Below are positions 3,454 to 13,352 of a stretch of DNA of 33,587 bases, piece after piece (the first letter of the stretch is position 1; each line of letters begins with the position of its first letter). The stretch comes from Rubrivivax sp. Its GTDB lineage: Bacteria > Pseudomonadota > Gammaproteobacteria > Burkholderiales > Burkholderiaceae_C. Both the position numbers and the translations under genes were made by a program. The stretch lies in NCBI GenBank assembly GCA_021297985.1, contig JAJTGU010000124.1, forward strand, positions 1 to 33,587. Direction: 5' to 3'. The notes under the pieces were generated by a model. The model made no database searches and was not told the DNA's origin. It saw only the letters and a program-made list of their open reading frames with translations.

Positions 3454-3630
3454 GGCGGCCCGGGTCGAGCCCGGAGTCTCTGTGTGTTCCTGATCCGCAA
3501 AAGTTTAGCCGGCGGCCTCGTGCGGTCCGGGCGCTGCGGTCAGGCGCCGAGGTGACGTCGACTGGCGCCGCTGCCAATGGCTGGGCGACTCCAGGCTCGC
3601 CCGCGCTTCACCGAACGGGAAGCGTTTGCC

Positions 3631-3659
3631 TTGACGACGGCCACGAGCGCCGCGAGAAT
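3631..3659 (+). promoter_or_regulatory. Predicted sigma-70 promoter of the cupin-TetR genes
   Basis: A -35 box TTGACG (3631-3636), a 17-base spacer and a -10 box GAGAAT (3654-3659; four of six consensus bases, including the key second A and final T) precede the cupin gene. The expected transcription start, about 3666, falls inside the operator-like sequence that follows directly. A repressor bound there would block initiation. Confidence 0.5.
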
Positions 3660-3678
3660 ACCTACCAACTAGAAGGTA
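3659..3678. promoter_or_regulatory. Operator-like inverted repeat upstream of the cupin gene
   Basis: TACCTACCAACTAGAAGGTA is an imperfect palindrome: the outer arms TACCT and AGGTA pair exactly and some inner pairs also match. It starts at the last base of the predicted -10 box and overlaps the likely Shine-Dalgarno AGAAGG (3671-3676). A near-identical copy lies at 4993-5011 in front of the dehydrogenase gene. Size, symmetry and position suit a TetR-family operator, and a TetR gene sits between the two copies. Confidence 0.6.
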
Positions 3679-3684
3679 CAAGGA

Positions 3685-4347
3685 ATGACCGAACTCGCGA
3701 TCCATGCCCAGCTCGACCGGCGCGCCGTCGTCGACGGTGACGCGCTCCCCTGGCAGGACTCCCCCGCGCCGGGTGTGCAGCGCCGCATGCTGGAGCGCGA
3801 CGGTGGCGAACGGGCCCGCGCAACCTCGGTGGTGCGCTATGCGCCGGGCAGCCGGTTCAGCCCGCATCGGCATGACGGCGGCGAAGAACTCTTTGTGCTG
3901 GAAGGCGTGCTTGAAGACGAGTTCGGCACCTACGGCACGGGCACCTACATCATGAACCCCCCAGGGACGGCACACACACCCGCATCCGCCCTGGGGTGCG
4001 TGCTCTGGGTCAAGCTGCGCCACCTCGGCCCGGAACACGGCGAGCGTGTGGTCGTGGACACCCAAGCCGCCGTTTGGCGGCCGGGCCTGGTGCCGGGGCT
4101 GGCCGTGCTGCCCCTGGGCAGCCATGGCACCCAGCACACCGCCCTGGTGCGTTGGGCGCCCGGTACCCGCTTTCAGAGACATCAGCATTGGGGCGGGGAA
4201 GAAATCTATGTGCTCAGCGGCGTCTTCGAAGATGAGCATGGCCGTTACCCGGCCGGTCATTGGCTGCGCAGCCCCCATCTGAGCCAGCACACCCCCTTCA
4301 GCGACGAAGGCTGCACCATCCTTGTCAAGACAGGGCATCTGCTGTGA
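3685..4347 (+). CDS. Double-domain ChrR-like cupin protein
   Basis: A 220-residue protein made of two cupin domains. The first has the metal-ligand pattern H61-x-H63...E67...H97 (HRHDGGEE and PPGTAH), the second H166-x-H168...E172...H202 (HQHWGGEE and LSQH). The spacing resembles the cupin domain of ChrR anti-sigma factors and the related cupin_7 proteins, but the zinc-binding anti-sigma domain of ChrR is absent, so this is probably a stand-alone cupin. Each domain can bind one metal ion; the reaction is unknown. The ATG at 3685 has a Shine-Dalgarno AGAAGG eight bases upstream, inside the operator-like repeat. The stop overlaps the GTG start of the TetR gene by four bases (GTGA), so both are made from one message. 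Confidence 0.82.
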   Translation: MTELAIHAQLDRRAVVDGDALPWQDSPAPGVQRRMLERDGGERARATSVVRYAPGSRFSPHRHDGGEELFVLEGVLEDEFGTYGTGTYIMNPPGTAHTPASALGCVLWVKLRHLGPEHGERVVVDTQAAVWRPGLVPGLAVLPLGSHGTQHTALVRWAPGTRFQRHQHWGGEEIYVLSGVFEDEHGRYPAGHWLRSPHLSQHTPFSDEGCTILVKTGHLL

Positions 4348-4943
4348 GCGAGTCGAAGCACTTCTCTGAACTCACCCCGGCCGCCGAGCGTCTGGTCGAT
4401 GTGGCGCAGGGGCTGATCCAGCGCGGCGGCTACAACGGCTTCTCCTACGAAGACATCGCCCGCGTGGTGGGCATCAAGAAGCCCAGCATCCACCACCACT
4501 TCCCGACCAAGGCCGACCTCGTGACCGTGGTCACGCAGCGCTACATGCACCGCTTTCGCGAGGCGCTGTTGCGCATCGAAGGCCAGCAGGCCCGCGCGCC
4601 AGAGCGCCTGTTGGCATACGCCGAGTTGTTCGAGCAGACCTATGGCGCGCAGCGCCAGCTCTGCCTGTGCGGCATGCTCGGCGCGGAGGCCGACGCGGTG
4701 CCGGCCGAGGTGGCGCAGGAGGTGCAACAGTTCTTCAAGACCAACCTCCAGTGGCTCACCGACGTCATCGAACAAGGCCAACGGCAGAACAGCCTGCGCA
4801 AGGAGGTGGATGCCCGCGTCCATGCGCAATTGCTGCTGTGCGCGCTGGAGGGCGCCATGGTCGTGGGCCGGGCAGCGGGTAGTGCCATTCACCAGGGCCC
4901 GCAAGCGTTGGGCGCCGCGCTGATTCATTCCCTCAGGGCCTGA
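4344..4943 (+). CDS. TetR/AcrR-family transcriptional regulator
   Basis: A 199-residue protein with an N-terminal TetR helix-turn-helix at about residues 32-53 ([22 protein letters not shown] spans it) and a helical ligand domain after it. The start is GTG 4344, whose GTGA overlaps the cupin stop; the frame is open further upstream, but that part runs inside the cupin gene. Length is standard for the family. Residues 107 and 109 are a Cys-x-Cys pair (RQLCLCGML) in the ligand domain; this segment is common in one TetR subgroup, and the cysteines could sense oxidants or electrophiles, which is inference. The matching inverted repeats in front of the cupin and dehydrogenase genes are the obvious candidate targets, giving autoregulation of cupin-tetR and control of the downstream gene. 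The inducer is unknown. Confidence 0.88.
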
Positions 4944-4960
4944 ACGGGCCTTCAACTCGC

Positions 4961-4985
4961 GGGGCCGATGTGGCCCTCTTTTTCA
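4961..4985 (+). terminator. Possible weak intrinsic terminator between the TetR and dehydrogenase genes
   Basis: A short stem GGGCC (4962-4966) and GGCCC (4972-4976) with a five-base loop is followed by CTCTTTTTC. The stem is only five pairs, so efficiency is doubtful. If real, it would separate cupin-tetR from the dehydrogenase and fit with the latter having its own operator-like site. Confidence 0.35.
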
Positions 4986-4992
4986 CCCTCGT

Positions 4993-5011
4993 TACCTACC
5001 AACTGAAAGGT
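4993..5011. promoter_or_regulatory. Second operator-like inverted repeat, upstream of the dehydrogenase gene
   Basis: TACCTACCAACTGAAAGGT matches 17 of 19 bases with the sequence at 3659-3677, differing only in two central bases (GA for AG). It lies 9 bases before the dehydrogenase ATG and contains that gene's likely Shine-Dalgarno (GAAAGG). No convincing -35/-10 pair precedes it, so the promoter is not pinned down. Confidence 0.6.
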
Positions 5012-5020
5012 TTGTCAATC

Positions 5021-5803
5021 ATGAACACACTCGACTTCTCGAACCAAAAGCTGCTCGTCATTGGTGGCACCAGCGGCATCGGCCTGTCCGTGGCGGAGCG
5101 GGTTCTGCGGGGTGGTGGCCGCGTGGTCGTGACCGGCCACCGCGCTGACAAGGCGGCTGCGGCGCTGCAGCAACTCCAAGCCCTGGGCGACGCCAGCGTC
5201 CTGCAAGCCGACCTGCAGCAAGCCAGCGGCCTGCAGCAGTTGCAAAGCGAACTGCAAGCGCGACACGGCGATGTCAGCCTGCTCGTCAACGCCGCAGGTG
5301 TGTTCGTGCCCAAGCCTTTCCTGGAGCACACCGAGTCCGACTACCGCAGCTACCACGCGCTCAACGAAGCGATCTTCTTCCTGACCCAAGGCGTCGTGCG
5401 GCGCTGGGTGGAGGCAGGCACCGAAGGCGCGATCGTCAACATTGGCTCGATGTGGGCGCAGCAGGCGATCGCCGCGACGCCTTCTTCCGCCTACTCCATG
5501 GCCAAGGCCGGCCTGCATGCCTTGACCCAGCACCTGGCCATGGAACTGGCGCCACGTCGAATCCGTGTCAACGCGGTCTCACCCGCGGTGGTGGCCACAC
5601 CGGTCTACGAGGCCTTCATTCCAAAGGCGCAAGTGCAGCAAGCGCTGGCCGGCTTCAACGCGTTCCACCCCCTGGGACGCATTGGCCAGCCCCAGGACGT
5701 GGCAGCGGTGGTGGCCTTCCTGCTGTCAAGCCAGGCGAGTTGGGTGACTGGCGCCCTTTGGGACGTGGACGGTGGCGTGATGGCCGGGCGAAACATGGCT
5801 TGA
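5021..5803 (+). CDS. Short-chain dehydrogenase/reductase (SDR family, NAD(P)-dependent)
   Basis: A classical SDR of 260 residues. It has the cofactor-binding glycine motif GGTSGIG (15-21), the NAAG structural motif (90-93), the catalytic serine S143 and the YxxxK pair Y158/K162 (YSMAK), and the C-terminal GALWDVDGG segment typical of the family. Arg-rather-than-Asp features after strand two (TGHRADK) suggest NADP(H), but this is tentative. The start ATG 5021 is chosen because the family begins about ten residues before the first strand; an in-frame upstream start at 4970 would run through the operator-like repeat. The substrate cannot be deduced. The gene probably belongs to the regulon of the TetR protein encoded just upstream. 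Confidence 0.9.
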
Positions 5804-6751: not shown

Positions 6752-6850
6752 GGGCGTCGCTCCTGAAGGGGTCGGTTCTGAATCCCGGTCGGGCCGGGAC
6801 CCGGTGGATTCTCGGACTTTCCGCAAAGGCCCGGCTTGTACGATCCAAGC

Positions 6851-8371
6851 ATGGCATCAACAACACGTACCGCAGCGGCAGGCGGACCGCTCGCGGGCAT
6901 CGACCTCGGGTCGAACAGCTTCCGGCTCGAGATCGGGCAGATGCCGGGCGGACGCTACCGCCGCATCGATTACCTCAAGGAGACCGTACGCCTGGGTGCC
7001 GGGCTCGACGCCGCCGGCCTGCTGTCGGACGAGGCCACCGAGCGCGGGCTGACCTGCCTGCGCCGGTTCGCGTCGAGACTGTCCGGATTTGCACCCGGCC
7101 AGGTGCGGGCCGTCGCGACGCAGACGCTGCGCGAGGCACGCAACCGCAATGCCTTCCTGCTGCGGGCTCAGGAAGTCCTGGGCTTCCCCATCGAGGTGAT
7201 CTCCGGTCGCGAGGAAGCGCGGCTGATCTACGCCGGCGTCGCCCACCTTCAGGCGGGCGACGAACCGCGGCTCGTGATCGACATCGGCGGCCGGTCGACC
7301 GAGCTCATCCTCGGCCGCGGCCGGGTGCCGATGGTGGCGGAGTCCTTCGGCACCGGCTGCGTGTCGCTCAGCCTGCGCTTCTTCGAGGGCGGTCGCATCA
7401 CCGAGGCCGGTTTCCGTGCCGCTCAGGTCGCCGCGGGTGCCGAGTTCGAAGAAGCGCTGGGGCCGTTTGCGCCCGAACACTGGGACCATGCGCTGGGCTC
7501 GTCCGGCACCGCCGGTGCGGTGTCGCAGGTGCTGATCGCGGCCGGCATGAGCGACGGCCGGATCACGCCCGCCGGCCTGCGATGGTGCATGCAGCAATGC
7601 CTGGCGGCCGGCCACATCGACAGGATCGACCTGCCAGGCCTGAAGCCCGAGCGCCGCGCCGTTCTGCCGGGGGGGCTGTCGATCCTGTACACCTTGGCCA
7701 CCCACTTCGACATCCAGGCGCTCTGGCCCGCCAAGGGGGCACTGCGCCAGGGGCTGATCGTCGACCTGCACGAGCGCCTGGTTGGCGCCGGACGCAGCGG
7801 CGACATGCGCGACGAGTCGGTGATTTCACTGCAGCAGCGATTCGACGTTGACGCCGAACAGGCCGAACGGGTCACGCGCATCGCGCTGGCCCTTTGGGAC
7901 CAGGGCGTACCGGCCGCGGTACGAAGCGATGGCGAGCGCCGGCGCGAACTGGCCTGGGCCTGTTCGCTGCACGAGATGGGTTTGATGGTCTCGCACCACG
8001 ACCACCACCGGCACAGCGCCTACCTGCTGGCCAACGTCGACGCGGCGGGTTTCTCGCAAAGCCAGCAGCGACGCATCGGCGAGCTGGTGCTCGGCCAGCG
8101 CGGCGGGTTGCGCAAGATCGAGACCGCATTGGCAGCCAGCGAGGCCTTTGCCTGGCAGGTGCTGTGCCTGCGGCTGGCCGTCATCAAGTGCCACGCCCGC
8201 CAGCCCGTGCACGACGGCGCCTTGCACCTGCTGCCCAGGGGACGCGAGGCCCTGCTGCGCTACACCCGCAGCTGGGCCGACGAACGCCCGCGGACGCTGT
8301 TCCTGCTGCAGGAAGAAGCTGCCGCCTGGGCCCGCCAGGGCGGACCCTTGGCCTTGCGTTTGCCGGGCTGA
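6851..8371 (+). CDS. ppx: Exopolyphosphatase (Ppx/GppA family)
   Basis: A 506-residue Ppx/GppA protein that releases phosphate from the ends of inorganic polyphosphate. The actin-like ATPase fold is marked by GIDLGSNSF (16-24), [13 protein letters not shown] (118-130, containing the catalytic glutamate region) and DIGGRSTE (144-151). The usual third motif is DIGGGSTE, so an arginine replaces one glycine here. A helical HD-like domain follows ([13 protein letters not shown] in its core) and the length matches proteobacterial Ppx rather than the shorter one-domain forms. ATG 6851 is preferred over a TTG 15 bases upstream. Close, convergent ppk supports Ppx over the guanosine pentaphosphatase GppA. 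It ends at a bidirectional terminator hairpin. Confidence 0.92.
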
Positions 8372-8378
8372 AAACACA

Positions 8379-8400
8379 AAACCCCGCCGAGGCGGGGTTT
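8379..8400. terminator. Bidirectional intrinsic terminator between ppx and the PEP-CTERM gene
   Basis: AAACCCCGC and GCGGGGTTT form a nine-pair stem around a four-base loop (CGAG). The A-run on the left and T-run on the right make it usable from both strands: it lies just after the ppx stop and 38 bp beyond the PEP-CTERM gene stop. Confidence 0.85.
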
Positions 8401-8438
8401 GTCGTAACCGTCCGGGGGGCCGGACTCGGCCCAGGCGA

Positions 8439-9068
8439 TCAGCGCGCCTTGCGACGCAGCGCGCCAGCGGCACCGGCCAGCGCCAGGCCCACCAGGGCCA
8501 GCGAGCCGGGTTCCGGCACTTGGTTGCTGCGGTCGGCGACGAAGAAGATCTTCTCGTAGGCGGTGCTTTGATTCAGGAACTGGATGTCGTTGATGCGGTA
8601 GCCGCCCACGAAGCTCAGCGTGTGCAGGCACATGCCGATGGGCGAAGCACCCGTGTTGCACTCGCCGTTGCGGACGACGTCGTTCAAGCCGGCAAAGCCC
8701 CAGGACCAGAAGTCCGAGTACCACCACTGAGCGCCGTTGGATACGTGCGTGGTGCTGGTGTTGCCGGTGTCGATGATCGAATCGGCACGCGTCGTCGCGG
8801 CCAGCGACAGCAGGGTGTTCGAACCGGTCTCGCGACCGGCCATCATGATGTAGTCGCCCTGGCACTGGTTCAGCACGTTTTCGCCGCTGTTGCCAATGGT
8901 GAGGTTGAACGTGGCCACGTAGCACTGCGTCCAGCCGCCACCGGTGACGGTGGCCAGCGACACGTTGGCCTGGGCGCCAAACGGCAGGTAGGTCGGCATG
9001 GCCTGGGCGGCGCCCGCGGCAAACAGGCTGGCGGCAGCCAGGGCGATGGAAGCAAGACGTTTGTTCAT
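8439..9068 (-). CDS. PEP-CTERM sorting-domain surface protein
   Basis: A 209-residue exported protein. Residues 1-23 are a signal peptide (MNKRLAS, hydrophobic run, AQA|M). Residues 184-209 form a textbook PEP-CTERM tail: VPEPGS, a hydrophobic stretch (LALVGLALAGAAGA) and a terminal RRKAR cluster. Such tails are recognised by exosortase (EpsH/XrtA) and removed as the protein goes to the cell surface or the exopolysaccharide matrix of biofilm- or floc-forming bacteria. The body holds four cysteines (49, 69, 137, 147), a tryptophan/aromatic patch near 115-124 and many Asn/Ser/Thr residues, but no named domain. ATG 9068 is preferred to a GTG nine bases earlier. No exosortase gene is in the window. 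The gene lies between the 3' ends of ppx and ppk. Confidence 0.87.
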   Translation of the reverse strand: MNKRLASIALAAASLFAAGAAQAMPTYLPFGAQANVSLATVTGGGWTQCYVATFNLTIGNSGENVLNQCQGDYIMMAGRETGSNTLLSLAATTRADSIIDTGNTSTTHVSNGAQWWYSDFWSWGFAGLNDVVRNGECNTGASPIGMCLHTLSFVGGYRINDIQFLNQSTAYEKIFFVADRSNQVPEPGSLALVGLALAGAAGALRRKAR

Positions 9069-9105
9069 GGCAGGCACCGGGTTTGGTTACAGGCGCCAAT
9101 CCAAC

Positions 9106-9121
9106 TGCGCAAACCGTGCCA
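9106..9121 (-). promoter_or_regulatory. Sigma-54 (RpoN)-like promoter of the PEP-CTERM gene
   Basis: On the minus strand, TGGCACGGTTTGCGCA matches the sigma-54 consensus TGGCACG-N4-TTGCW: the -24 element is perfect, spacing to the invariant -12 GC is exact, and only the two T bases before that GC differ. Initiation would be near 9095, about 27 bases before the ATG. PEP-CTERM genes in several floc-forming betaproteobacteria depend on RpoN and the PrsK/PrsR pair, which supports the reading. Confidence 0.5.
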
Positions 9122-9142
9122 CAACAGAAATCTTGAATTAAA

Positions 9143-9157
9143 TCAACAACTTGTTGA
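9143..9157. promoter_or_regulatory. Perfect 15-bp palindrome upstream of the PEP-CTERM gene
   Basis: TCAACAACTTGTTGA has seven-base arms around a single central base, in an AT-rich patch that stands out from the surrounding sequence. It lies about 50-60 bases upstream of the predicted sigma-54 start. It could be an activator or repressor site, or part of the upstream sequence read by an enhancer-binding protein. Confidence 0.45.
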
Positions 9158-9241
9158 CCACGGGCCGTATACAGTTGTAAGCAATGGAAACTTTTCCGAC
9201 ACCCCCGCCTGCAGGAGGACCCCAGCGATTCGTGAAGAGTT

Positions 9242-11386
9242 TCACAGACCATAACGTCGAGCCAGCGCCTGCTGCGCGCTGACGCCGTCGTCGGCGATGC
9301 GCCGGTACCGGCCCTGGCCGTCCAGCGACCAGGCGTCGCGACGGTCGTGCAGGTAAGGCACCAGGCCTTCGTCGATGACGCGCTGGCGCAGCGCGGCGTC
9401 GCGCACCGGCCAGGCGATCTCGATCCGGCGGAACATGTTGCGGCTCATCCAGTCCGCGCTCGACAGGTACAGCGCCTCGTCGTCGGCGCCGTCGCCCCAG
9501 CGGAAGTACATCACCCGCGAATGCTCCAGGAACCGGCCGACGACCGAGCGCACCTGGATGTTGTCGGTCGCGCCCGGCAGGCCCGGCGGCAGCATGCAGG
9601 CACCCCGGACGATCAGATCGATCCGCGCCCCGGCCTGCCCGGCCGCGATCAGGGCGTGGATCAGCGCCGGATCGGTCAGCGCATTGACCTTGACGACGAT
9701 GCGCGCCGGCCGACCGGCCCGCGCCGAATCGGCCACCTGCTGGATCAGCTTGAGCATGCGCCGGTGCATCACGAAAGGTGCCGTCACCAGGTGCTGCGGC
9801 GGCTTGAGCTTGGTCTGGCTGGCAAGCTGCAGGAACACCGCGTCGGCATCCGCCGCGAGCCCCGGGTCGGCACTGAGCAGGCCGAAGTCGGTGTACAGCC
9901 GCGCGGTCTTCGGGTTGTAGTTGCCGGTCGACAGGTGCAGGTAGCGGCGCAGTCGCGGCTGTCCGTCGTGGCGCGCGCCCTTGCCGCTGGCGGCTTCTCG
10001 CCGCGTCACCAGCAGCAGCTTGGCGTGGGTCTTCAGGCCGACGATGCCGTAGACGACCTGCGCGCCCACCGCCTCGAGCCGCTCGGCCCAGTTGATGTTG
10101 GCCTCTTCGTCGAAGCGCGCCTTCAGCTCGACGACCGCCAGCACCTCCTTGCCGCGACGGGCCGCCTCGATCAGCAGGTCCATCAGCACGCTCTGCGTGC
10201 CGGTGCGGTAGATGGTCTGCTTGATCGCCAGCACGTCGGGGTCGTGCACCGCTTCGCGCAGGAACTGCACGACCGGCTCGAAGCTCTCGAACGGGTGGTG
10301 CAGCAGAACGTCGCGCTGGCGCAGCTGGTCGAAGATGGACTGCCCCAGCGGCAGACTGGCGCTGGGCCAGGCGGCCTCGAACGCCGGGAATCGGAGCGCC
10401 TCGTTCGCCAGCCGGTCGTCGACCTGCTCGATCAACTGGTTCAGCCGCACCAGGTTGACCGGCCCGTTGACCTTGTACAGCGCGACCTCGGGCAACTGGA
10501 ACTGCTCCAGCAGGAAACGGCTCAACTCGACCGGGCAGCTGGCCACCACCTCAAGCCGGATGGCCTGCCCGAAGTGGCGCAGCGTCAATCCGCTGCGCAG
10601 TGCCTGGCGCAGGTTGGTCACGTCGTCCTCGTCGACCTCGAGGTCGGAGTCGCGGGTGACGCGGAACTGCGAAAACGACACCACCTCGCGCCCCCCGAAC
10701 AGCTCGCCCAGGTGGGCGCGGATGACGCTGGACAGCAGCACGAATCCTTGCGCACCGCCCGTCAATGACTGCGGCAGCGATATCACCCGCGGCAGCACAC
10801 GCGGCACCTTGACGATGGCGATCTGGTTCTCGCGCCCGAAGGCGTCGCGGCCCCCGAGCTTGGCGATGAAGTTCAGGCTCTTGTTGGCCACCAGCGGGAA
10901 CGGGTGGCTGGGGTCCAGGCTGACCGGCACCAGCAGCGGCCGCACCTGGGTCTCGAAGAAGCGCTGCACCCATTCGCGCTGCGGGGCGTCGCGCTCGGCG
11001 TGGTTCAGCACCACGATGCCGACCCGCTTGAGCGCGGGCATGACCTCGTCGTTGAACAGCGCGTACTGCTCGTCGATCAGTTCGTGCGCGGCCGCGGCCA
11101 GCGCCTTCAGGTCGGTGCCGGCCTCGTTGCCCTGCTGGCGATGGGCCTCGATCGCGTCGGCGACGCGCACCTCGAAGAACTCGTCGAGGTTGGAGCTCAC
11201 GATGGTGACGTAGCGCAGCCGCTCCAGCAGCGGCACGTCCGCCCGCCGCGCCTGCGCCAGCACGCGGCGGTTGAACTGCAGGATCGAGCGCTCGCGGTCG
11301 AGCAGCGGCGTGCTGTCGGCGATCTTTGCGGGCACCGCGGCCGGCAGGGGGATGGGCGGGACGATGGGTGACTTGGCTTCGGTCAT
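9242..11386 (-). CDS. ppk: Polyphosphate kinase 1
   Basis: A 714-residue PPK1 that reversibly transfers the gamma-phosphate of ATP to polyphosphate. All four domains seem present. The N-terminal helical domain starts at about RERSILQFNRRVL (31-43) and reads NLDEFFEVRVA near 66-76. The catalytic half includes AIKQTIYRTG (387-396), the autophosphorylated histidine H454 in LKTHAKLLLV and RYLHLSTGNYNP (481-492). Length matches other PPK1 proteins. The start ATG 11386 is chosen because the family's N-terminus aligns there; the frame remains open for another 970 bases, but that segment is antisense-frame material inside the ABC ATPase gene. A 68-bp gap separates it from the transporter operon; it contains the 10-bp palindrome GTCGCGCGAC (11404-11413), with no clear Pho box. 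Confidence 0.95.
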   Translation of the reverse strand: MTEAKSPIVPPIPLPAAVPAKIADSTPLLDRERSILQFNRRVLAQARRADVPLLERLRYVTIVSSNLDEFFEVRVADAIEAHRQQGNEAGTDLKALAAAAHELIDEQYALFNDEVMPALKRVGIVVLNHAERDAPQREWVQRFFETQVRPLLVPVSLDPSHPFPLVANKSLNFIAKLGGRDAFGRENQIAIVKVPRVLPRVISLPQSLTGGAQGFVLLSSVIRAHLGELFGGREVVSFSQFRVTRDSDLEVDEDDVTNLRQALRSGLTLRHFGQAIRLEVVASCPVELSRFLLEQFQLPEVALYKVNGPVNLVRLNQLIEQVDDRLANEALRFPAFEAAWPSASLPLGQSIFDQLRQRDVLLHHPFESFEPVVQFLREAVHDPDVLAIKQTIYRTGTQSVLMDLLIEAARRGKEVLAVVELKARFDEEANINWAERLEAVGAQVVYGIVGLKTHAKLLLVTRREAASGKGARHDGQPRLRRYLHLSTGNYNPKTARLYTDFGLLSADPGLAADADAVFLQLASQTKLKPPQHLVTAPFVMHRRMLKLIQQVADSARAGRPARIVVKVNALTDPALIHALIAAGQAGARIDLIVRGACMLPPGLPGATDNIQVRSVVGRFLEHSRVMYFRWGDGADDEALYLSSADWMSRNMFRRIEIAWPVRDAALRQRVIDEGLVPYLHDRRDAWSLDGQGRYRRIADDGVSAQQALARRYGL

Positions 11387-11454
11387 CCGCCGAGAATATG
11401 ACCGTCGCGCGACAAATGCGTGACGTTGCCGGTGCGGGCCCGCGGGACGTGGTG

Positions 11455-12228
11455 CTACTTCAGCGAGTTCGCCAGGAACCCCTGCAGCCGCTCGCTTTGC
11501 GGTCGCACAAGCACCTCGGCCGGATGGCCCTGCTCCTCGATGCGGCCCTTGTGCAGGAAGACGACGTGGTTGCTGACCTCGCGGGCGAAGCTCATCTCGT
11601 GGGTGACGACGATCATCGTGCGGCCTTCTTCGGCGACGCCGCGCATCACGCGCAGGACTTCGCCGACGAGCTCGGGGTCCAGCGCCGACGTCGGCTCGTC
11701 GAACAGCATCACCTGCGGCTCCATCGCCAGCGCGCGGGCGATCGCGACGCGCTGCTGCTCGCCGCCCGACAGGTGCGCCGGGTAGGCGTCCTTGCGGTGG
11801 AACACGCCGACCCGCTGCAGGTAGCGCTCGGCACGCTCGACGGCCTCGGCCCGGCTCAGGCCCAGGACCTGGGTCGGTGCCTCGATGACGTTTTCGAGTG
11901 CCGTCAGATGGGCCCAGAGGTTGAAGTGCTGGAACACCATCGCCACGCGTGAGCGCAGGCGCTGCAGCTGTGCCGCGTCGCGGGCCTTCAGCGCGCCGGA
12001 TTTGTCGGCCACCAGGACCAGCTCCTCGCCGGCGACGACGATGCGCCCGGCGTTGGGCTGCTCCAGCAGGTTCAGGCAGCGCAGGAAGGTGCTCTTGCCC
12101 GAGCCCGACGAGCCGATCATCGAGATCACGTCGCCCTGGCGGGCCCGGACGCTGACGCCATCGAGCACGGTGTTGGCGCCGTAGCGCTTGACGATCCCTT
12201 CGGCCAGCAGCAGCACGTTGTCGCTCAT
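11455..12228 (-). CDS. aotP: Amino-acid ABC transporter ATP-binding protein (AotP/HisP type)
   Basis: A 257-residue ABC ATPase of the polar-amino-acid uptake family. Walker A is GSSGSGKS (39-46), the Q-loop glutamine is Q100, the signature is LSGGE (153-157), Walker B is VMLFDEP with D177/E178, and the switch histidine is H210 (VVTHEMSF). It energises uptake by the two permeases encoded just upstream. It is the last gene of the five-gene operon and starts 14 bases after the AstE-like gene. The open frame extends to 12516 but that part overlaps the AstE-like gene. The order binding protein-permease-permease-AstE-like-ATPase matches aotJQMOP of Pseudomonas, which imports arginine and ornithine; HisP or GlnQ naming would fit the protein alone. 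Confidence 0.88.
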   Translation of the reverse strand: MSDNVLLLAEGIVKRYGANTVLDGVSVRARQGDVISMIGSSGSGKSTFLRCLNLLEQPNAGRIVVAGEELVLVADKSGALKARDAAQLQRLRSRVAMVFQHFNLWAHLTALENVIEAPTQVLGLSRAEAVERAERYLQRVGVFHRKDAYPAHLSGGEQQRVAIARALAMEPQVMLFDEPTSALDPELVGEVLRVMRGVAEEGRTMIVVTHEMSFAREVSNHVVFLHKGRIEEQGHPAEVLVRPQSERLQGFLANSLK

Positions 12229-12242
12229 GGTTGCCACACCCC

Positions 12243-13352
12243 TCAGGCCGACAGCAGCTTGCCGCTGCGGACCACGGTCGTGCCGGCGATCTTGGCCAAG
12301 CGTTTGCCTGGCGTCGCCCAGCGCGTGGCGATGCGGGCGTACAGACGGCCGGCACCCTGGCAACGCAGCGTCGTGACCTGGCCGCTGTCGGGGCAGATCA
12401 CGTCGGCGATGGGCGCTCCGGCAGCGACCTGCTCGCCCGGTTCGGCGCGGAACACGACGACGCCGGCCACCGGCGACGTGATCGGCTCGGACGCCGCCAG
12501 CGGGGTCGGCTCGCAACGAGCCGGCGGCAGCGGTGCCGGCGTGCCGGCCACCAGGCCCCTTCGGCGCAGGAACTCGACGATGGCGTCGGCGTCGCTCTCG
12601 GCCCAGTCATGCCGCGTGTCGGCCTCGCCGCGCAGTTCGACCGTCACGGCAAAGCAGCCCAGCGGGATCGGGTGCTCCGGGAAGCGCTGGCGCAGCGCGA
12701 GCCAGGGCGTGCTGCAGGCTTCGTCGAAGGGCATGTCGCCACTTTCGGTGGCCAGCAGGATGGCCTCGGCGCCCAGCAAGGCGCCGAGTTCGGCTGCCAT
12801 CGCGTGCTGTGGCGTCAGGCCATAGAGGTGCATCGGCGCCTGCGAGTCGCAATGCAGGTCGAGCACGATCTCGCTGGCCACCGCCTGGGCCAGCAGACGG
12901 TGCTTGAGGTCCTGCGTCGGCGTGCTCGAAAGCAGCGCCGCCGCTGAGTCGGCCAACGCACTGCGGATGAGCGCGGCGTTTGCCGCTTCGTCGTCGCCGA
13001 GCCGGCCCTGCAGCACGTCCACCACGCGCGGCGCCAGATCGGGGTAGGCCCGGTTGAAGTTGATGCCGTCGCGCAGGTCGAAGCGGCCATGGTGCTGACC
13101 CTGCAGGTGTTGCGCCAGGCCCAGCGGGTTGGCATAGGGCACGAGCTGCACGCCGCCGAGCAGATCGCCAGCCGCCTCGAGCCGCTCGAGCCGCTCGCGC
13201 AGCTTGTGCGCGACCAGCATCGCCGGCACCTCGTCGGCATGCAGAGACGCCTGGATCGTGGCGCGCGGGGCGCCGGGTCCGAAGCGCAGGCGTCGGTAGC
13301 TGAACTGCTGGCCCGGGCCGCCGCTGGCAAGGGTCTGGATCTCGGAAAGCAT
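12243..13352 (-). CDS. aotO: AstE/aspartoacylase-family zinc hydrolase (AotO-like)
   Basis: A 369-residue member of the succinylglutamate desuccinylase/aspartoacylase family (M14-like fold). Zinc ligands are H38 and E41 (SLHADE) and H167 (LDLHCD); the catalytic glutamate is E239 (TVELRGEAD). The C-terminal 90 residues contain a barrel-sandwich-like segment (ITSPVAGVVVFRAEPGEQV, from about 282), which resembles lipoyl/biotinyl carrier folds and occurs in this branch. Enzymes of the family cleave N-acyl groups from amino acids, so an acylated amino acid linked to arginine catabolism is a sensible substrate guess; none is proven. A homologue, aotO, occupies the same place in the Pseudomonas arginine/ornithine uptake operon. 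ATG 13352 is preferred over a TTG at 13376; neither has a clear Shine-Dalgarno. Confidence 0.82.
   Translation of the reverse strand: MLSEIQTLASGGPGQQFSYRRLRFGPGAPRATIQASLHADEVPAMLVAHKLRERLERLEAAGDLLGGVQLVPYANPLGLAQHLQGQHHGRFDLRDGINFNRAYPDLAPRVVDVLQGRLGDDEAANAALIRSALADSAAALLSSTPTQDLKHRLLAQAVASEIVLDLHCDSQAPMHLYGLTPQHAMAAELGALLGAEAILLATESGDMPFDEACSTPWLALRQRFPEHPIPLGCFAVTVELRGEADTRHDWAESDADAIVEFLRRRGLVAGTPAPLPPARCEPTPLAASEPITSPVAGVVVFRAEPGEQVAAGAPIADVICPDSGQVTTLRCQGAGRLYARIATRWATPGKRLAKIAGTTVVRSGKLLSA

Follow-up and report, generated by a model that had tools for sequence, protein, structure and literature searches.

The DNA analysed here (the window) is a stretch of 33,587 nt that makes up one complete contig of a draft genome of Rubrivivax sp. 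On its forward strand a cupin gene (3685-4347, 220 aa) is followed by a tetR gene (4344-4943, 199 aa) and by a gene for a short-chain dehydrogenase/reductase, SDR (5021-5803, 260 aa; Pfam PF13561, E 3.9e-50). The cupin protein has two ChrR-like Cupin_7 stretches (Pfam PF12973, E 1e-66), and its nearest solved chain is 3o14. For tetR, a GTG start overlapping the cupin stop was chosen from sequence and alignment. Its product matches TetR_N and TetR_C_13, the helix-turn-helix domain TetR_N (PF00440) scoring 42.2 bits against a cut-off of 24, and has no close paralog in its own genome (next best E-value 4.8e-6, 26% identity). Both neighbours of the cassette, a ZIP transporter gene on its upstream side and a gene for a dienelactone hydrolase on its downstream side, are encoded on the opposite strand. 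Beyond the hydrolase gene, at 6836-12355, lie reading frames whose translations resemble an exopolyphosphatase (Ppx) and a polyphosphate kinase.

The original prediction had placed two nearly identical 19-bp repeats on either side of a TetR gene. Both repeats were found, with tetR between them: TACCTACCAACTAGAAGGT at 3659-3677 and TACCTACCAACTGAAAGGT at 4993-5011, equal at 17/19 bases. With up to three mismatches allowed outside the two open positions, the 19-mer pattern had two matches in the window and none in 100 shuffles, which excludes chance and agrees with the claim that the motif occurs nowhere else in the window. Throughout the draft genome (4.73 Mb, 340 contigs, 96% complete), only the two sites in the window matched at two mismatches or fewer, and at three mismatches there were 15 further places versus 27 for a reversed-pattern control. 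The 19-mers are thus real, but their extent had to be corrected: the conserved unit behind them is a 16-bp palindrome, TACC-N-ACTAGT-N-GGTA, usually preceded by CC. The predicted operator O1 (3663-3678, TACCAACTAGAAGGTA) differs from it at one position and forms a conserved stretch in the alignment with locus L068. The predicted operator O2 (4997-5012, TACCAACTGAAAGGTT) is degenerate, with four mismatches, and relatives have a good palindrome at the same position; neither operator is assigned to a strand. Both sites lie just 5' of a gene, the cupin ATG being at 3685 and the SDR ATG at 5021. The overlap with the ribosome site that had been described holds in the window but not as a general rule, since in pWW0 and many relatives the ribosome site of the SDR gene lies 3' of the palindrome with no overlap.

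In L068, the closest relative (TetR 83% identical), both sites stand out amid upstream DNA that is otherwise poorly alignable, and the degenerate second site is identical to that in the window. The 17/19 identity over so short a stretch might also be expected if the two sites were a recent duplication or a chance similarity without function. However, the same two positions are occupied in distant cassettes with different flanks, and this conservation already contradicts such an origin, to which we give next to no credence.

The motif travels with tetR. A cupin homolog at E <= 1e-20 was found in 51 of 299 genomes of the family (own included), and 30 of the 53 places listed were examined as loci, own copy included. 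In three of them (L013, which is the window's own, L024 and L036) a tetR homolog stands beside the cupin gene, and in all three the best palindrome match has 0-1 mismatches. In the 27 cupin loci lacking tetR, the best match over the whole locus has three (one locus), four (seven), five (16) or six mismatches (three). An element belonging to the cupin gene was rejected on this ground, as these 27 homologs have no such motif. L024 and L036 carry the motif twice each, before cupin and at the SDR position; L024 retains the site at the SDR position although its SDR remnant amounts to a 19-residue match to the end of that protein.

TetR homologs came from two sources: 399 genomes of the order (19 at E <= 1e-25 when the window's own is counted; loci L043-L067) and a named genome collection, from which 80 of the 257 confirmed relatives were retained. 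Together with the window these gave 106 loci, 93 of them with a distinct TetR. Two loci are common to the cupin set and the close-TetR set, L109 and L104 apparently being the contigs of L024 and L036. Where TetR is at least 50% identical (46 distinct loci, window left out), 37 loci have a site with at most two mismatches just before cupin, tetR or SDR, against a mean of 0.12 and a maximum of 13 for permuted palindromes on the same loci (at least one permutation reached 13/46); the loci are related, so that these and the following counts are not independent events. The nine close loci without such a site (L044, L071, L087, L094, L096, L097, L108, L118 and L147) have a best match of 3-6 mismatches, and L147 was counted as close on a match over 50 residues only. 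A site with at most two mismatches was present in 6 of 30 loci at 35-50% TetR identity and in 1 of 16 below 35%, so the strict consensus fades with distance.

The position of the site depends on the gene arrangement. Among 22 cupin-tetR operons (window included), a site with at most two mismatches precedes cupin in 16 and tetR in none; L084, L085 and L091, which have this arrangement and a cupin just 46-49% identical, have a four-mismatch site before tetR. Among 25 loci without an upstream cupin (window included), tetR itself is preceded by such a site in 16. Since the site precedes cupin in the operons and tetR otherwise, tetR tends to sit under its own site in both arrangements. SDR genes have a site with at most two mismatches in front in 25 of 29 cases (window included). 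Conservation of the repeat next to orthologous cassettes had been set beforehand as a test of the original prediction, and the prediction passed it: the repeat tracks tetR, not cupin.

Several neighbourhoods hold additional copies or genes. On a Sinorhizobium plasmid (L155), four operator matches with 0-2 mismatches (1518, 1589, 2972 and 3644) surround a tetR homolog; genes nearby carry the annotations flgD, TetR and hypothetical protein. L112 has two operator copies upstream (1078 and 1215) and a DJ-1/PfpI gene near its tetR homolog, and in L087 DJ-1/PfpI and OsmC genes lie near the homolog (926-2430). It is possible that the neighbouring genes in L112 and L087 are further members of the regulon.

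At the first site, the operator is accompanied by a promoter. The -10 box that had been noticed at the first repeat is GAGAAT (3654-3659), and it pairs over a spacer of 17 with a -35 hexamer TTGACG (3631-3636), giving a predicted sigma-70 promoter P1 on the forward strand (3631-3659). These hexamers are the sole promoter-like pair within 3500-5100, where shuffles average 0.1. Among 32 distinct site-1 contexts (TetR at least 50% identical and sites with at most two mismatches, plus the window), 24 reach a promoter score of at least 8 of 12, compared with 3.3 and at most 7 in shuffled upstream DNA. The geometry is kept in relatives: 20 of those 24 contexts (20/32 overall) have exactly 3 nt between the -10 box and the palindrome, and in column counts over 40 site-1 contexts, numbered from the palindrome, TTGACA falls at -32 to -27 and the -10 box at -9 to -4. 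A T-run before site 1 is rare (2/33). Because of this fixed geometry, the palindrome O1 would cover the start point. We infer that O1 works by steric occlusion, the ordinary way of TetR: as the operator adjoins the -10 box and spans the expected start of P1, bound TetR would block initiation of the cupin-tetR operon. A palindromic operator near the own promoter is expected of autoregulated TetR repressors, and O1 at P1, with its conservation, provides one at the level of sequence.

The repeats might instead be RNA elements around the ribosome sites, and in the window both do overlap a purine-rich ribosome site. Against this, many relatives have a near-perfect DNA palindrome, often upstream of the ribosome site; the palindrome follows tetR rather than the cupin gene, the position of O1 is set by the -10 box, and the RNA around O2 in the window folds no better than shuffles (z -0.18). 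We consider RNA elements very improbable. The circuit originally proposed, a TetR repressor acting on cupin and SDR, is supported by these comparisons, and we regard it as probable (roughly 85%) that the repeats are the two operators of the TetR repressor encoded between them, with negative autoregulation through O1.

The second site has a different context. An intrinsic terminator is predicted on the forward strand at 4961-4983, with a hairpin at 4961-4977 and a T-run ending at 4983, and O2 starts 13 nt on. Within 3500-5100 of the window two terminator-like sites were found versus 1.2 expected. In the survey of relatives (TetR at least 40% identical, SDR present, sites with at most four mismatches), an intrinsic terminator precedes O2 in 25 of 31 loci, compared with 3.1 and at most 7 in shuffles; the loci without one are L046, L048, L071, L084, L089 and L106. 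From the last T to the palindrome there are on average 12.2 nt (sd 1.4, 25 loci). Among 26 site-2 contexts chosen by the criteria used for site 1, a sigma-70 -10/-35 pair with a score of at least 8 was absent from 25 and present in one, while shuffles had 2.0 on average and at most 6. Lying behind a terminator and lacking a recognisable sigma-70 promoter, the second site may work unlike the first. A sigma-54 promoter at O2 was also considered and rejected: judged by eye, the pWW0 copy matches GG-N10-GC, but L069, L098 and L107 have a spacing of 9, and the hairpin with its T-run accounts for the pattern instead.

How TetR would act at O2 can be outlined as follows. TetR would also occupy O2 in front of the SDR gene, which would be reached by readthrough from P1 across the terminator, and TetR at O2 would stall RNA polymerase in the U-tract and so strengthen termination. 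The front edge of RNA polymerase lies 14-18 nt ahead of its active site. With O2 about 12 nt behind the U-tract, a polymerase blocked by TetR would therefore stand in the U-tract, which is a matter of geometry and not proof. An inducer would release TetR, and the cupin and SDR genes would be expressed. We hold this action at O2, with SDR served by readthrough from P1 and termination strengthened by TetR, only tentatively, as a possibility short of an even chance. That O2 is a repressor-gated intrinsic terminator, at which bound TetR forces release and inducer-bound TetR permits partial readthrough into SDR (and osmC where present), seems rather doubtful. If gating at O2 is true, a single repressor would act on initiation at O1 and on elongation at O2. 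It counts against readthrough and stalling at O2 that a strong terminator should end most transcripts whether TetR is present or not.

A separate promoter for SDR, unrecognised here, appears about as likely as gating at O2. TetR would then bind both sites, O2 would control a promoter without the sigma-70 consensus located in the terminator or spacer, and the terminator would insulate cupin-tetR from SDR; we regard this as a real possibility, somewhat under even odds. A terminator after tetR is ordinary, and O2 is preceded by an A-rich spacer with ACC at its end. Apart from this ACC, no column between the T-run and O2 is strongly conserved, which speaks against a promoter there, as does the missing -10/-35 pair in 25 of the 26 contexts. 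The distances also argue against insulation: the terminator keeps a constant distance to O2, whereas the interval from the tetR stop to the hairpin is variable (over the 20 loci where tetR lies upstream, mean 10.9 nt and sd 15.7). The constant spacing between terminator and O2 could in part be inheritance.

Six loci in which SDR precedes tetR (L070, L084, L085, L091, L093 and L099) bear on the same question. In all six the T-run is kept, 8-13 nt before O2, and a hairpin is present in five by the rule used. A second operator-bearing promoter was sought ahead of the leader, and an operator-like stretch does lie some 132-147 nt from SDR, with three mismatches in L070, four in L085 and L091, and five in L084, L093 and L099. 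It was equalled in 0 of 300 shuffles for L070, 17 for L085, 25 for L091, 86 for L084, 92 for L093 and 58 for L099, so that on its own it goes beyond chance in L070 only. In five of the six loci a -10/-35 pair ends 3 nt before the stretch; the three best pairs of L091 include none so placed. The best pairs of these leaders were equalled in 14-161 of 300 shuffles. In five of the loci a co-directional reading frame ends upstream of SDR, and the terminator there could belong to that frame, which favours a separate SDR promoter with an ordinary terminator. In L070 the frame upstream of SDR runs in the opposite direction, and terminator and O2 are present although no co-directional gene ends just upstream, which speaks against it. 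The six loci may go back to one event, and as support for gating at O2 they are only suggestive.

The spacing of the two operators also bears on a DNA loop of about 1.33 kb, in which TetR would hold O1 and O2 together and O2 would be an auxiliary operator. The sites do lie about 1.32-1.37 kb apart where both cupin and tetR are between them. However, in loci that lack cupin (L098, L102 and L107) the sites are only about 0.67-0.69 kb apart, and TetR dimers are not generally known to loop DNA; a loop is very improbable.

Within the genus, tetR was found in 1 of 31 genomes, the window's own. The neighbouring hydrolase is present in 24 other genomes of the genus, of which 11 were examined as loci (L160-L170). 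In eight of these, ZIP and hydrolase are direct neighbours with about 5-150 nt between alignment ends, which is the empty site corresponding to the window's 2.4-kb stretch; in the remaining three no ZIP gene was found within the locus. Judged from these comparisons, the cassette is accessory, and on sequence grounds it is mobile. Plasmid records with a cassette of the pWW0 type number 30, among them pWW0 and NAH7; DNA identity is 90-100%, and in 28 of the records the match spans at least 80% of the query. A TetR match at E <= 1e-20 occurs in 790 plasmid records. The circuit had been called self-contained, a description in keeping with the empty site in relatives and the homologous cassettes on plasmids.

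Some occurrences lie in unexpected records. The cassette's closest relative (83-88% identity) sits on the L068 contig, which is filed as Myxococcota and is possibly wrongly binned. A plasmid record filed under Priestia (CP065422, H10) has a pWW0-type cassette at 100% identity, and a Thalassospira contig (L074) has a near-identical TetR. The latter two would represent either recent transfer or contamination.

The closest known counterpart is the orf41-43-44-45 cargo of Tn6603 / Tn4653 on the TOL plasmid pWW0, which has the same order cupin-tetR-SDR. Compared through L073, whose cassette DNA is 100% identical to that of pWW0, its TetR, cupin and SDR are 57, 65 and 66% identical to those of the window. 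Gene order, homologous genes, an operator at both positions and the terminator before O2 are shared, the O2 of the window being the degenerate one (four mismatches). The difference is a fourth gene after SDR, annotated as OsmC family, which places the window outside the full pWW0/Tn6603-type cassette in this one respect; the pWW0 OsmC protein had no match in the window at E 1e-3. In excerpts of the paper on Tn6603, orf41-43-44 are described as cargo without a known phenotype, and these excerpts make no mention of an operator (PMC7765201). A search by term in parts of a further paper found nothing on a cassette of the window type (PMC6723655).

At the level of protein families, the best solved-structure matches to the TetR of the window, over most of the protein, are 2g7s (114.6 bits) and 3on4 (92.6 bits), which are named there only as TetR-family regulators. 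The TetR stays below the NCBIfam equivalog cut-offs of AcuR (48.3 of 247 bits), ScbR (51.4 of 150) and CurR (39.5 of 300). The cupin protein resembles ChrR anti-sigma factors in its ChrR-like cupin domain, 3o14 having been deposited as anti-ECFsigma factor ChrR. It differs from them in having two cupin stretches and remains below the NCBIfam cut-offs for ChrR (TIGR02451, 58.1 of 124.5 bits; NF051881, 43.5 of 300). Judging from titles and abstract starts in the PMC papers searched, no paper on the operator of this TetR clade was recognised. An autoregulated TetR cassette is ordinary in kind; as far as these PMC searches show, the operator consensus for the clade and the terminator-operator unit are new. 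The libraries and structures searched name this clade only at family level; it now has an operator consensus, which offers a testable control scheme for a cargo carried by catabolic plasmids such as pWW0 and NAH7. If polymerase truly stalls at the terminator, the recurrent terminator-operator unit would represent an unusual action for a TetR repressor.

Regarding the signal, 91 of the 93 TetR proteins aligned have Cys107 (46/47 close and 45/46 more distant ones, window included), the exceptions being gaps in L147 and L145, and Cys109 in 46/47 close and 32/46 more distant proteins (window included). A Klebsiella plasmid homolog of TetR has Pro at position 107. Two such plasmids encode homologs of 33-37% identity (L157, 3217-5359; L158, 3167-3965), each within an island that also holds OsmC and carboxymuconolactone decarboxylase genes and, as annotated in L157, thioredoxin, alkene reductase, DsbA and SDR genes. 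In both loci osmC and tetR are directly preceded by operator matches with 2-3 mismatches, and L157 has a further one some 120 nt ahead of its alkene reductase gene. OsmC-family genes also stand beside some other TetR homologs, and DJ-1/PfpI genes do so in L087 and L112. These neighbours hint at an electrophile or peroxide signal, while the cassette of the window itself holds only cupin and SDR. The conserved Cys107 may be where an inducer acts to release TetR, the inducer perhaps being a reactive electrophile or a compound of the peroxide type; alternatively, Cys107 may be structural rather than sensing.

E. coli NemR, with its operon nemRA-gloA, is the known system that comes nearest in this respect. 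It belongs to the TetR family, and Cys107 aligns with its Cys106, so that Cys107 is a candidate reactive site. In the excerpts of two papers, NemR Cys106 is held to sense reactive chlorine (PMC8748444; PMC3739934). The TetR of the window is only 23% identical to it over 146 aa, and the window has other target enzymes; in the nemR region the palindrome had no match better than five mismatches. The TetR of the window was thus not filed as NemR, falling short of orthology, and may nevertheless work like it. The downstream gene of nemRA-gloA gains expression by readthrough, according to a portion of PMC3739934, and in this respect the E. coli operon resembles the model proposed here for O2.
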